A stretch of DNA of 37,491 bases from an uncultured Chlorobiota bacterium (GTDB lineage Bacteria > Bacteroidota > Ignavibacteria > UBA10030 > UBA6906): contig CAADGV010000028.1 of assembly GCA_900696645.1 (NCBI GenBank), positions 1 to 37,491 on the forward strand. Reading direction: 5' to 3'. Positions 2,724 to 8,204 of the stretch are shown here, one piece after another; position 1 is the first letter of the stretch, and each line of letters opens with the position of its first letter. The notes below the pieces were generated by a model. It was given only the letters and a program-made list of their open reading frames with translations, did not search any database and was not told where the DNA came from. The position numbers and the translations under genes are program-made.

Positions 2724-3443
2724 TCAGATGCTCACAGACACGCCCGGTGCCAGTTCCACAAGCCTCTTCTTCATTTTTGTATGAAGATGTCTTCTCAGCA
2801 TCTGCGGTGTCCCGGTAAGTGCAGCAAATGTCCCGTAGTGCATACCGATAATGGTTTTCGGTTTGATGAGATCGCAGGCAATTGCAGCTTCACGCGGACC
2901 CATCGTGTACAAATCTCCTATTGGCAGAATGGCAATATCGGGCTTGTAGAGCTTGCCAATCAACTTCATATCGCCAAAAAGAGATGTGTCACCTGCGTGA
3001 TACAACACGAGCTTGTTCTCGAATTGAATGACGTAACCCGCCGCCTCGCCGCCGGGTGCAACAACCTTCCCATTCACATCAATATCGCAACTGTGCTTTG
3101 CATCCACCATCGTTACCTTGATTCCGGCGACATCAAGCGTGCCTCCCTTGTTCATCCCGATGGCGTTGGTAACGCCGAGTGACGTGAGGTAGAGATAGAC
3201 TTCGAAGATGCTGACGACGGTTGCATTCGTCCGCTTCGCAATCTCAGCGGCATTGCCAATATGATCGGAATGACCATGTGTGACGAGAATAAGATCGACG
3301 TGCGGAATGTCCTTGGCTCCGGCAGGGGCTTTGGGATTTTCAAGCCAGGGATCAATCAGAATGATCCTGCCGGAAGGCGATTCACATTTGAATGCCGAAT
3401 GCCCCAGCCAAGTAATCTGGACAGATTTCTTGGTTGATGTCAT
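2724..3443 (-). CDS. UPF0173 family metal-dependent hydrolase
   Basis: A 239-residue metallo-beta-lactamase-fold protein of the UPF0173 (YtkL) group. It opens with ITWLGHSAF and DPWLENP and has the di-metal motif HGHSDH (residues 56-61), His117 (DAKHS), HAGDT (149-153) and His202 (GMHYGTF), so the metal site appears intact. The chosen ATG at 3443 has an AAAGGG SD about 10 nt upstream and fits the family length; an in-frame ATG at 3488 would add 15 residues without homology. The substrate of this family is generally not known. The gene lies 47 nt downstream of the ScfR-like regulator and is probably co-transcribed with it. Confidence 0.88.
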   Translation of the reverse strand: MTSTKKSVQITWLGHSAFKCESPSGRIILIDPWLENPKAPAGAKDIPHVDLILVTHGHSDHIGNAAEIAKRTNATVVSIFEVYLYLTSLGVTNAIGMNKGGTLDVAGIKVTMVDAKHSCDIDVNGKVVAPGGEAAGYVIQFENKLVLYHAGDTSLFGDMKLIGKLYKPDIAILPIGDLYTMGPREAAIACDLIKPKTIIGMHYGTFAALTGTPQMLRRHLHTKMKKRLVELAPGVSVSI

Positions 3444-3490
3444 ATCGGTACTACCCTTTCTGTTTGTGAGAAAAGACCGGGAGAGCACCG

Positions 3491-4996
3491 CTATTCGACG
3501 CTTTTCAAGAAGCGTTGAAGGGATGCCTCCCGCTCCTTCTGCAGTTGATGTTTACGATGGATAACCGGCGGCACAGCCCGTTCCTTGCACGCCGCCCTTG
3601 GAAGCGAACACCGCTCGCATGTTTCATTCACCTCCACAACGGGAATGGAGGAATCGTTCCAGAAACCGACGGTGTTCTTGAAATTGTCGTTCAACAAAAG
3701 TCCCAGACTGATACTGGAGTTAGTATGTTCCGTCAACGCAAGAGGCCGCGCCACCGAGATGACGAAGAACTCCGCATCCCCGTCCATGAAGCGTGACCGT
3801 TGGACGCCGGTAATTGTCGACTCTTTCAGCGTTCGCCCCGGCATTTCGGCAAGTTGTTGCAACAGGGTAATCGAAAGCCACCTGCGGCAATAATGTTCAT
3901 TCAAACCGATGGCGTGCGGAACAACGACGCGGGACATATTCAGCTCTTTCGTCAGCACAAAGTCCTTGCTCCCCACCTCGTTGTTAAAACGGAGATAGAA
4001 CATCTCCTGCATTCCGAAAAAGGTCGGGATGATTTGACTGAGACGATAGAGGAACATCTCGGGCGTTGCCTCGAACCGACGCATGATGTTCAAAAACGCA
4101 TTGCCGTTCCAAGACGTCCGCTTGAAAAATCGTTCAAGTTCTGTTCGTAATGCGTTGCGGTTGATAAACAACGCGCCTGCGAAGTATGACGCCTTGTAGT
4201 TGTTCAGAACTTCCGCGAAAGAACTCACCTCCAACCACGTTGAGGTAACGGGATGTTCTTTCAAGCCGAGAGTGCGGAAACCGAGTTCGCGGGCAAGCAA
4301 GAATGCACGCTGTGAAGGAAGCAGTCTGTCGTTAAGAAACAGCTTCGGCGACTTCCCTTTTGTGGAGATGGAACGGAACTTCTTCAACTCGGGATAGTCA
4401 TGAAACGGAATCTCTCCAATCTCATACCCGAACTCATCTTTCAAAATGTTGAAAAGACGATCCACCTGAACCGGTTGCTCGACATTCAGCTTGTGTTTGC
4501 GTGCAAACTCCTCAGCCGCGGTTTCCAGTTCTTCGAAATAGTTGGAGTGCAGTTTCTGGTACGAACGAAGAGCCGCAAACAGAAACTGCTCGACGCTCAT
4601 GTCGTAGTTCTGGCCGATCTCCAGCAACGTCTGAATGAATGCGCCGGCTTCCTGCGGCGACTCCGTGATGAGGCCGACGAGATCACGCGGCTGGATGCCG
4701 AACAGTTCAAAGGGAAATTCCTTGATAAGGGGAGATTTCAGAAACATCGTTAACGGATCAAGCGAGTCGGACATCTTCGCCGAGACAAGCTCGTCGAATG
4801 AAACGCCAAGGGCATTCGCAAGCTGGATAATCTTGTCCGGTGTGGGGTACTTCTTTCCTTTCTCGATTTCACTCAGGTAGGAAACCGAAAGCACGGATTT
4901 TGCAGCAAGCTCAGAGAGGGAAAGATCTTGTTCGGCACGAAGCTGTTTGATCTTCACACCCAAAATCAACCGGAGGTTTTCAGCGTCAATATTCAT
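3491..4996 (-). CDS. XRE-family ScfR/RamB/PrpR-like regulator, probable glyoxylate shunt regulator
   Basis: A 501-residue protein with an N-terminal XRE helix-turn-helix (about 15-70; LSVSYLSEIEKGKKYPTPDKI), a central region resembling the ImmA/IrrE peptidase-like fold, and a C-terminal domain of the short-chain fatty acyl-CoA regulator type. Where IrrE proteins have HEXXH, this one has RELGF (236-240), so it should not be an active metalloprotease. Four C-terminal cysteines, Cys370 (HYCRRW) and Cys460, 463 and 470 (CERC-X6-C-KERAVPP), match the CXXC...C-RA-PP pattern of RamB and PrpR-like proteins; PrpR has been reported to bind an Fe-S cluster. RamB controls aceA and aceB in actinobacteria, and here the gene is divergent from aceA-aceB. 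It probably binds the AGCGAAA sites in the shared intergenic region, including one 4 bp before its own start codon (autoregulation). No clear SD precedes the ATG. Confidence 0.88.
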   Translation of the reverse strand: MNIDAENLRLILGVKIKQLRAEQDLSLSELAAKSVLSVSYLSEIEKGKKYPTPDKIIQLANALGVSFDELVSAKMSDSLDPLTMFLKSPLIKEFPFELFGIQPRDLVGLITESPQEAGAFIQTLLEIGQNYDMSVEQFLFAALRSYQKLHSNYFEELETAAEEFARKHKLNVEQPVQVDRLFNILKDEFGYEIGEIPFHDYPELKKFRSISTKGKSPKLFLNDRLLPSQRAFLLARELGFRTLGLKEHPVTSTWLEVSSFAEVLNNYKASYFAGALFINRNALRTELERFFKRTSWNGNAFLNIMRRFEATPEMFLYRLSQIIPTFFGMQEMFYLRFNNEVGSKDFVLTKELNMSRVVVPHAIGLNEHYCRRWLSITLLQQLAEMPGRTLKESTITGVQRSRFMDGDAEFFVISVARPLALTEHTNSSISLGLLLNDNFKNTVGFWNDSSIPVVEVNETCERCSLPRAACKERAVPPVIHRKHQLQKEREASLQRFLKSVE

Positions 4997-5000
4997 CGCA

Positions 5001-5148
5001 TAGCGAAAAAGGAGCGGAGTTCGGTTCCAATATATGCCCTTTTTGCCAGAAATGCTTCTCTATTAGCGAAAAATGAGGTGACATGAAGCATCATCTATAA
5101 GCGAAACTTAGGAGCGAGCGAAAGTTCGCTTGACAAATGTATTTCGCT
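5001..5148. promoter_or_regulatory. Cluster of AGCGAAA sites, probable operator for the divergent regulator/aceA region
   Basis: The heptamer AGCGAAA occurs on the plus strand at 5002-5008, 5065-5071, 5100-5106 and 5117-5123, and on the minus strand at 5142-5148. A sixth, six-base copy (TTCGCT, 5125-5130) forms an inverted repeat with the fourth: AGCGAA-AG-TTCGCT at 5117-5130. The last two copies overlap the -35 element and the spacer of the aceA promoter, and the first lies next to the regulator's start codon. The layout fits repression of aceA and autoregulation by the neighbouring ScfR-like protein. The pattern and positions are read directly; which protein binds is inferred. Confidence 0.7.
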
Positions 5149-5158
5149 GAGTTATATT
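5130..5158 (+). promoter_or_regulatory. Sigma-70 promoter of aceA-aceB
   Basis: Perfect -35 TTGACA (5130-5135), a 17-nt spacer, and -10 TATATT (5153-5158). Transcription would start near 5165, giving a leader of about 48 nt. The SD AAGGGAGA lies 8 nt before the aceA ATG at 5213. Confidence 0.8.
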
Positions 5159-5212
5159 TATCCCAGTTTTGTTCTTTCACATATCCACAATCAAATCAAG
5201 GGAGACCAAGCC

Positions 5213-6496
5213 ATGCCCACCTTCGAAGACGTTCAAACACGGGGACCAATGAACAACCGATGGGAGGGAGTTACCCGCCCATACACTGAACACGATGTGC
5301 AGAAGCTGCGAGGGACGGTCGACATCAAATACACGCTCGCAGAACTTGGAGCAAAACGATTGTGGAATTTGCTGCATACCGAACCGTACGTGAAGGCGCT
5401 TGGCGCGCTTACCGGCAATCAGGCAATGCAGCAAGTACGTGCCGGTCTCAAAGCAATTTACCTCAGCGGCTGGCAGGTTGCCGCCGATGCGAACCTCGCC
5501 GGACAGATGTACCCCGATCAGAGTTTGTATCCCGCCAACAGTGTTCCCGAAGTCGTCAGAAAGATCAATCACACATTATTGCGTGCCGATCAAATTCATT
5601 CCTCCGAAGGATTGAATGGCATACACTGGCTCGCGCCGATTGTTGCAGACGCTGAGGCGGGTTTCGGCGGGCCGCTCAATGCATTTGAGTTGATGAAGGC
5701 GATGATCGAAGCCGGTGCAGCAGGAGTTCACTTCGAAGATCAACTTGCATCGGAAAAGAAATGCGGCCATCTTGGCGGCAAGGTTCTCGTCCCGACAAGC
5801 CAGTTCATCCGCACGCTTACGGCCGCCCGGCTCGCTGCCGATGTCACGAATGTGCCTACCTTGATTGTCGCACGCACAGACGCAGACAGCGCCAATCTTC
5901 TGACGAGTGATATTGATCCCCGTGACCACAAATTTGTCACAGGAGAACGAACGGCAGAAGGATTCTTCCGCGTTCGCAGCGGAATCGAAGCGGCAATTGA
6001 CAGAGCCATCTCCTACGCACCGTATGCAGACCTGATCTGGTGTGAGACATCCCACCCTGATCTTGGAGAAGCAAAAGAGTTTGCCGATGCAGTTCATGCG
6101 CGGTTCCCCGGCAAGTTGCTCGCCTACAATTGTTCGCCATCATTTAACTGGGCGAAGAAGCTCGACCCGGAAACAATCGCGCAGTTCCAGGATAAGTTGG
6201 GCGAGATGGGGTACAAGTTCCAGTTCGTCACGTTGGCGGGATTTCACGCCCTCAACCACAGCATGTTCACCCTCGCCCACGACTACAAAGGGCGAGGAAT
6301 GGCTGCATATTCCCAGCTTCAACAGGACGAGGTCGCCAGCGAAGCGATTGGCTACACTGCAACGAAGCATCAGCGTGAAGTGGGAACGGGTTACTTCGAT
6401 CTCGTCACGCAAATCGTTTCGGGCGGGACGTCCTCGACGACGGCACTTGCAGGTTCAACCGAGCGAGCGCAATTCTATACGTCAGCCGTATCGTGA
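5213..6496 (+). CDS. aceA: Isocitrate lyase
   Basis: Isocitrate lyase (EC 4.1.3.1) splits isocitrate into glyoxylate and succinate, the first step of the glyoxylate shunt, in the cytoplasm. The 427-residue length is normal for the bacterial enzyme. The catalytic signature KKCGH is at residues 182-186 inside [17 protein letters not shown]. Other family landmarks are [11 protein letters not shown] (84-94), DAEAGFGG (146-153) and, near the end, [10 protein letters not shown]. The start has a good SD and a strong promoter. It is followed after 88 bp by malate synthase, so the two genes form one unit, probably controlled by the divergent ScfR-like regulator. The cell can therefore grow on acetate, fatty acids or other C2 sources. 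Confidence 0.98.
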
Positions 6497-6584: not shown

Positions 6585-8204
6585 ATGCACGACGTTATCG
6601 TAGAGCCGGCCATCGTGGGGGTTGAGTTATTGGGAACTTCGATGAACGCATATCCCGATATTCTTTCTCCTGATGCACTCGACTTTGTTGCGAAACTGGA
6701 ACGCGAGTTCCGTCCGGCACGTTTGCAGCTTCTCGCCTCCCGACAAGACCGACAAGCCCGACTGGATGCGGGTGAAAGGCCTGACTTCCTTTCATCCACC
6801 AAAGCTGTCAGAGACAACTTGTCGTGGCGGGTTGGAACGATTCCGGGTGACCTTCAGGATCGGCGTGTTGAGATCACCGGGCCTGTCGAGCGCAAAATGA
6901 TGATCAATGCGCTGAATTCCGGCGCCAACGTGTTCATGGCTGACTTTGAAGATGCTAACTCTCCAACGTGGGAGAACATCATGAACGGTCACCGCAACCT
7001 GCGGGACGCCATCGATCGTTCGATATCGTTTACAAGTCCCGAAGGAAAACAGTATCGTTTGAACGATGAGGTCGCCACGTTGATGGTCAGGCCGCGAGGT
7101 TGGCATCTCGAAGAGAAACACGTTCTCGTTGAAGGAAAGCCTATGTCGGCTTCGCTGTTTGATTTTGGGATGTATTTCTTCCATCAAGCGCAAACTCTTC
7201 TTGATCGCGGAACGGGTCCCTACTTTTATCTTCCCAAACTCGAGAACCATCACGAAGCACATTTGTGGAACAGCGTGTTCGAGTTCGCCCAAGATGAACT
7301 CGGCATCCCACAGGGTACTATCAAAGTGACAGTGTTGATCGAGACAATTCTCGCCGCATTTGAAATGGAGGAGATTCTTTATGAACTACGCAATCACATA
7401 GTAGGCCTGAATGCGGGGCGTTGGGATTACATGTTCAGCGTTATCAAGAAATTCAGAAGTAACCCTGACTTTCTCCTGCCCGACCGATCACAACTGACGA
7501 TGACGGTGCCATTCATGCGCGCCTACACAGAGTTACTTGTCAAGACTTGCCACAAGCGCGGTGCGCATGCAATCGGCGGAATGGCGGCGTTCATTCCAAG
7601 CAGAAAAGACCCGAAAATCAACGAAATCGCCCTCGCAAAGGTCACCGAAGACAAGGTGCGCGAGTCGAACGATGGTTTCGATGGAACGTGGGTCGCGCAT
7701 CCCGATCTCGTCCCCGTTGCGCGAAAACCGTTCGACGCTGTCCTCGGCTCATCCCCTCACCAAAAACATCGTCTGAGAGATGACGTGAACGTCACGGCAA
7801 ATGATCTGCTCAACTTCTCTGTTCCGGAATCATCAATAACAGAGGCGGGGTTTCGCAACAACATCAACGTGGGACTTCAATACATCGAATCCTGGCTGCG
7901 GGGAGTTGGCGCCGCGGGAATTTTCAATTTGATGGAAGATGCGGCAACTGCCGAGATCTCACGCTCGCAGGTGTGGCAATGGTTGCACCATCAACGGGCG
8001 CAACTTGCCGATGGAAGACTCATCAACGAGTTTATGTATCAAACGTTGCGGGATGAAGAATTGAGGAAGATCGAGGAGACGATCGGGCCGGAGGCATTTG
8101 CCGCATCCCGTTTCGACATTGCGCGGATGCTGTTCGATCAGCTTGTGACGAGAGATGTGTTTGCCGACTTTCTCACGTTAGATGCGTACAGATATTTGGA
8201 CTGA
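6585..8204 (+). CDS. aceB: Malate synthase A
   Basis: Malate synthase (EC 2.3.3.9) condenses glyoxylate with acetyl-CoA to malate, completing the glyoxylate shunt. The 539-residue length matches the A form. Visible signatures are [14 protein letters not shown] (118-131), VRPRGWH (168-174; the catalytic arginine region), [22 protein letters not shown] and GGMAAFIPS. The frame is open upstream into the aceA coding region, but the ATG at 6585, with AAAGGA about 9 nt before it and the usual N-terminal family sequence after it, is the real start. The transcript ends before the convergent lptD gene, probably at the inverted repeat 8211-8295. Confidence 0.98.

Follow-up and report, generated by a model that had tools for sequence, protein, structure and literature searches.

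The nearest solved fold to the regulator described here is that of Mycobacterium tuberculosis PrpR (PDB 6cyy, 6cz6, 6d2s), a member of the IsaR/ScfR superfamily with which it has in common an XRE helix-turn-helix (HTH) and a degenerate IrrE-like domain. PrpR regulates acyl-CoA assimilation including icl1, a setting similar to that of our regulator. RamB of Corynebacterium glutamicum and M. tuberculosis (class 1), from the same superfamily, controls aceA and aceB (icl1 in M. tuberculosis), and RamB of Paracoccus denitrificans (class 2) is encoded divergently from the glyoxylate operon, has two boxes upstream of aceB and binds CoA esters (PMC10370305). We analysed a stretch of 37,491 nucleotides from an uncultured Chlorobiota bacterium (contig CAADGV010000028.1; hereafter the window), in which a preliminary description had proposed that a ScfR/RamB-like protein controls the glyoxylate shunt through a multi-copy AGCGAAA operator.

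Results

The regulator gene (3491–4996, minus strand, 501 aa) diverges from aceA (isocitrate lyase, 5213–6496, plus strand), which is followed by aceB (malate synthase A, 6585–8204, plus strand). A metal-dependent hydrolase gene (PRK00685-type, 2724–3488) lies on the regulator's strand, 3 bp beyond the end of its gene, and the two are probably co-transcribed.

The regulator begins with an XRE/Cro-CI HTH (HTH_3, residues 16–70, E 2.9e-17), also present in all 33 relatives described below, followed by an IrrE/M78-like domain (PF06114, residues 188–320), which lacks the HExxH protease motif and has AREIG or a similar sequence at the corresponding place of the alignment, and by a PrpR-like C-terminal part. 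When an AlphaFold model (pLDDT 85) was compared with solved structures, the best Foldseek matches were PrpR entries 6cyy, 6cz6 and 6d2s (E 1e-10 to 2e-8); PDB matches limited to the HTH (SinR, DdrO, ClgR) were set aside as generic. Alignment of the clade brought out four conserved cysteines, C370, C460, C463 and C470, which align with those of an annotated Methylocella ScfR and are putative [4Fe4S] ligands; in the superfamily that unites PrpR, RamB, MccR and PccR, one cysteine is in a GAF-like domain and the other three form C-X2-C-X4-C at the C-terminus, and the last spacing is X4 in several relatives and X6 in the window protein. Thus, judged by predicted fold, domains and cysteines, the regulator is within the PrpR/ScfR superfamily. 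The RamB equivalog model NF038139, however, scored 49.1 bits against a curated cut-off of 700, with no protein of the genome above the cut-off, and the ScfR C-terminal domain PF09856 found no match in the window protein and only weak ones in 3 of the 33 relatives (best E 1.7e-4). Because of these two results we regard the protein as related to the named RamB family but outside it. One annotated relative beside aceA/aceB is named just "helix-turn-helix domain-containing protein".

Between the regulator gene and aceA, AGCGAAA occurs on the plus strand at 5002, 5065, 5100 and 5117 and on the minus strand at 5142–5148 (as TTTCGCT), with a TTCGCT half-site at 5125–5130. These are the positions of the preliminary description, which had counted five exact copies and one inverted partner; the six sites near aceA are in fact four direct and two inverted. 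By the criterion that the preliminary description itself had set, the heptamer alone is not special, with 794 copies genome-wide against 805 for the reversed control word, which rules it out as an enriched genome-wide word and argues against it as the functional unit. The window holds 12 copies where 8.1 are expected, yet the cluster of five per 153 bp has P ~2e-10 at the genome rate, and ~1e-5 such clusters would be expected genome-wide. Positions 5117–5130 form a palindrome, AGCGAAAGTTCGCT, with two 6-bp arms and a 2-bp centre, which we predict to be the core operator (O1). The 4.2-Mb genome has a single exact copy of AGCGAANNTTCGCT, at this site, and copies with one mismatch are fewer than those of the reversed control (7 versus 15); we found no regulon reaching beyond this locus in the same genome.

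How is this palindrome placed relative to the aceA promoter? TTGACA (-35 box, 5130–5135) and TATATT (-10 box, 5153–5158), both on the plus strand and separated by a 17-bp spacer, match 11 of 12 consensus bases and are the sole promoter-like match in the region. The -35 box begins with the last T of O1, the centre of the palindrome is at about -41.5 from the inferred transcription start, and the inverted half-site at 5142 (O3, minus strand) lies inside the spacer; a near-perfect promoter with sites on its -35 box and spacer had been described, and this part was confirmed.

Two genus mates carry a regulator 94% and 72% identical to that of the window, divergent from aceA in both. The block AGCGAAACTT - AGCGAAnnTTCGCTTGACA - 17 bp - TATATT is kept in both intergenic regions, and the upstream half-site at 5100–5106 (O2, plus strand), 17 bp from the O1 half-site, is conserved in all three genus members. 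O3 is degraded to TTTCGCC and ATCGCC, and the copy at 5065–5071 (plus strand) is retained in one of the two. The copy at 5002–5008 (plus strand), 5 bp upstream of the regulator start codon, is absent from both and probably incidental; the suggestion that the regulator controls its own gene through this site is not supported, as the site is gone from both other species of the genus. All three genus species show strong conservation of the aceA leader just after the -10 box (5162–5185, CCCAG..GTTCTTTCACATA). No known RNA element was found in the window, this leader included.

We then asked whether the palindrome accompanies the regulator elsewhere. Scanning named genomes with a three-sequence regulator alignment yielded about 33 homologues, complete or nearly so. 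One, at 71% identity, belongs to the genus and the others are at ~37–51%; the records are labelled Ignavibacteriae, Chlorobiota, Gemmatimonadetes, Calditrichaceae, Acidobacteria, Rhodothermales, other Bacteroidetes, Reinekea and Desulfocapsaceae; aceB and/or aceA diverge from the regulator in about half of these discovery loci. With the window and its genus mates included, this made 35 discovery regulators. AGCGAANNTTCGCT, with at most one mismatch and within 300 bp upstream, was found at 26 of the 35 (19 exact), compared with none in 30 shuffled sets and a single one elsewhere in the discovery loci (266 kb). A phylum-wide search then found the regulator in 69 of 395 genomes, giving 62 further loci with a regulator less than 80% identical to the discovery set, a limit that excludes the few genomes common to both samples. 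By the same criterion, 52 of these 62 loci carry the palindrome (43 exact). Even at two mismatches, no palindrome lies within 300 bp at 7 of the 35 discovery loci and at 8 of 68 further ones; two of these loci have it farther off, by aceB. The palindrome is conserved beside homologous regulators across phyla. In one group of Bacteroidota families nearly every copy has CG at its centre (AGCGAACGTTCGCT); elsewhere the centre is mostly A/T.

To examine the geometry, we aligned 50 non-redundant sites on the palindrome and compared them with shuffles. Towards aceB/aceA, 20 of the 50 sites have a TTGACA-like box starting at offset 13, against no more than 13 in any shuffle, and 14 have TATnnT at offset 36, where the shuffles reached 5 at most. 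The upstream half-site GCGAAA occurs at offset -16 in 11 of 50 (at most 4 in a shuffle), and TTTCGC occurs downstream at offset 24 in 7 (at most 3). No -35/-10 signal appeared on the regulator side, so that conservation is one-sided. The 5100 copy, with AGCGAAA at -17 and hence GCGAAA at -16, has the conserved offset, and the 5142 copy, with TTTCGCT at +25, has nearly the common one, which is found in a minority of relatives. The sites first described thus resolve into O1, two outer half-sites and two local extras: the predicted functional unit is the 14-bp palindrome with outer half-sites at fixed offset, and not five equal heptamers. By analogy, four half-sites nested in this way would be a fitting target for a tetrameric protein, as PrpR is (PMC6765138).

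The palindrome also stays with the regulator when the neighbouring gene changes. It lies between the regulator and an AMP-binding acyl-CoA synthetase gene, an aconitase gene, PEPCK followed by FBPase, and, at two loci, adenylate kinase. Away from the regulator, a copy precedes an isocitrate lyase gene ~0.8 Mb distant in Reinekea, and in a sample of trans copies from regulator-bearing Bacteroidota genomes the downstream genes are FadB-like (two loci), fadE, enoyl-CoA hydratase and PEPCK, in keeping with the functions seen beside the regulator. One genus is an exception: in three of its genomes, with 2–7 palindromes each, the palindrome is found at the regulator and not at the unlinked aceA. In two Bacteroidota genomes it directly precedes ilvD (dihydroxy-acid dehydratase), which is unexpected for an acetate regulator.

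Could the array have arisen by chance, from a common word that happened to cluster where intergenic DNA is A/G-rich? The genome-wide and window counts given above would allow it, but the density of the cluster speaks against it and the conservation across phyla is decisive, leaving this explanation a negligible probability overall; a chance origin is excluded for O1 and improbable in the case of O2, and may hold for the 5002 copy. The palindrome might instead be bound by a different transcription factor and not by the product of the neighbouring gene. The link between the two was drawn by comparing sequences, and about a fifth of the phylum genomes without the regulator do have a copy: the exact palindrome is present in 57 of 69 regulator-bearing genomes and in 69 of 326 others, counts uncorrected for shared ancestry. 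But the palindrome is found at the regulator's own gene even when the neighbour is neither aceA nor aceB, and where aceBA occurs in a genome without the regulator the palindrome is missing: seven regulator-less genomes with this type of aceA have none at aceA and none at aceB either, where the sequence was examined or the whole-genome count was zero. We therefore consider a different factor highly improbable. Binding of the palindrome by this regulator is strongly indicated by the comparative evidence, and AGCGAANNTTCGCT is very probably the operator of the PrpR/RamB-like protein encoded at 3491–4996, a statement that covers operator and regulator, apart from the sign of control. Of the original operator proposal, the predicted sites for a divergent regulator acting on aceA-aceB stand, given the cross-phylum palindrome, and the five equal heptamers do not.

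Discussion

What is the mechanism of control? We propose that the regulator, as a dimer or larger assembly, would bind O1 and make weaker contacts at O2 and O3, and that binding beside and inside the aceA promoter would control aceA-aceB. Acyl-CoA would be sensed by its C-terminal part, the probable seat of an iron-sulfur cluster, as expected by homology with PrpR and RamB; the precedents for this property are PrpR and Paracoccus RamB (PMC6765138, PMC10370305). Acyl-CoA sensing would then tie the glyoxylate shunt to the availability of acetate or fatty acids.

The regulator may act as a repressor relieved by acyl-CoA or, alternatively, its ligand-bound form may be a class II activator that contacts RNA polymerase from about -41.5 and turns on aceAB. 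Activation would explain why the palindrome keeps a fixed distance from the -35 and -10 boxes across phyla, and only towards aceB/aceA, a constancy that a repressor acting simply by blockage would not require; moreover, Paracoccus RamB activates its divergent aceB-aceA operon (PMC10370305) and PrpR is an activator (PMC3420887). Yet a promoter at 11 of 12 consensus bases should need no help, a further half-site lies within its spacer, and C. glutamicum RamB represses aceA and aceB (PMC4448153). In addition, in the regulator-bearing genome G103, the palindrome lies 2–3 bp downstream of a TAnnTTTG box at two beta-oxidation genes, fadE and a 3-hydroxyacyl-CoA dehydrogenase gene, where it is placed to block, in contrast to its place at aceBA. 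Because of the near-consensus promoter, the half-site in the spacer and the G103 arrangement, repression relieved by acyl-CoA is slightly favoured, with a probability of little over one half; activation from -41.5, while nearly as likely, falls somewhat below that mark. The layout for repression in the preliminary description is thus possible, but the fixed position near -41.5 fits an activator too. The position of the operator may set the role, with activation from -41.5 and repression at +1.

Taken together, the comparisons point to a distinct, so far unnamed PrpR/RamB-like clade that has an operator of its own and is predicted to control a broad regulon. No prior description of the palindrome or its variants in a regulatory context was found in the literature searched, which did not extend to the 2015 ScfR classification; the clade may be listed there under another label (Carter and Alber 2015). 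As AGCGAANNTTCGCT recurs almost unchanged in many phyla beside the same type of regulator, it predicts control of growth on acetate and fatty acids. More tentatively, and with somewhat less than an even chance of being right, this multi-phylum PrpR-like acyl-CoA clade, with its near-invariant operator and possibly position-dependent action, could be a main regulator of how fatty acids and acetate are assimilated in a large part of Bacteroidota and neighbouring phyla. If true, its predicted targets would be aceBA, acyl-CoA synthetase, beta-oxidation and PEPCK genes, in phyla for which we found no description of glyoxylate-shunt and fatty-acid regulation in the literature searched. One clade and one operator word, readable straight from the genomes of several phyla, would make the regulon predictable and testable, and the near-invariant operator with its fixed promoter geometry would be a good case for studying how iron-sulfur acyl-CoA regulators activate and repress.

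Among the known systems, Pseudomonas RccR and Escherichia coli IclR belong to protein families other than that of the window regulator. They resemble it in function only, since both control the glyoxylate shunt by carbon source (RccR, PMC5489143). The ScfR of Methylocella tundrae plasmid p1, a PccR-like protein encoded beside propionyl-CoA carboxylase genes, is a full-length homologue (27% identity) in which the four cysteines align; its own intergenic region lacks AGCGAANNTTCGCT. Paracoccus RamB, set apart here by its published sites, its protein sequence (Pden_1365) lying outside the comparison, has the boxes TGACAAACCTTAC and TGACAATACTGAC, without AGCGAANNTTCGCT. The site of class 1 RamB is printed as AA/GAACTTTGCAAA (PMC4448153), a word absent here. 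PrpR differs from the window regulator in sequence (17% identity over the aligned fold) and in cysteine spacing (CX2CX4C versus CX2CX6C), but its four [4Fe4S] cysteines all have counterparts in the window protein. Its site, TTTGCAAA-n-TTTGCgAA, compares with AGCGAANNTTCGCT here, GCGAA being common to both. The binding word had been called distinct, and TTTGCAAA is indeed not found in 4997–5212 at up to one mismatch; however, the TTTGC(A/G)AA sites of M. tuberculosis PrpR and RamB already include GCGAA (PMC6765138, PMC3420887). TTTGC(A/G)AA and AA/GAACTTTGCAAA differ from AGCGAANNTTCGCT but have a GC(A/G)AA core in common with it.
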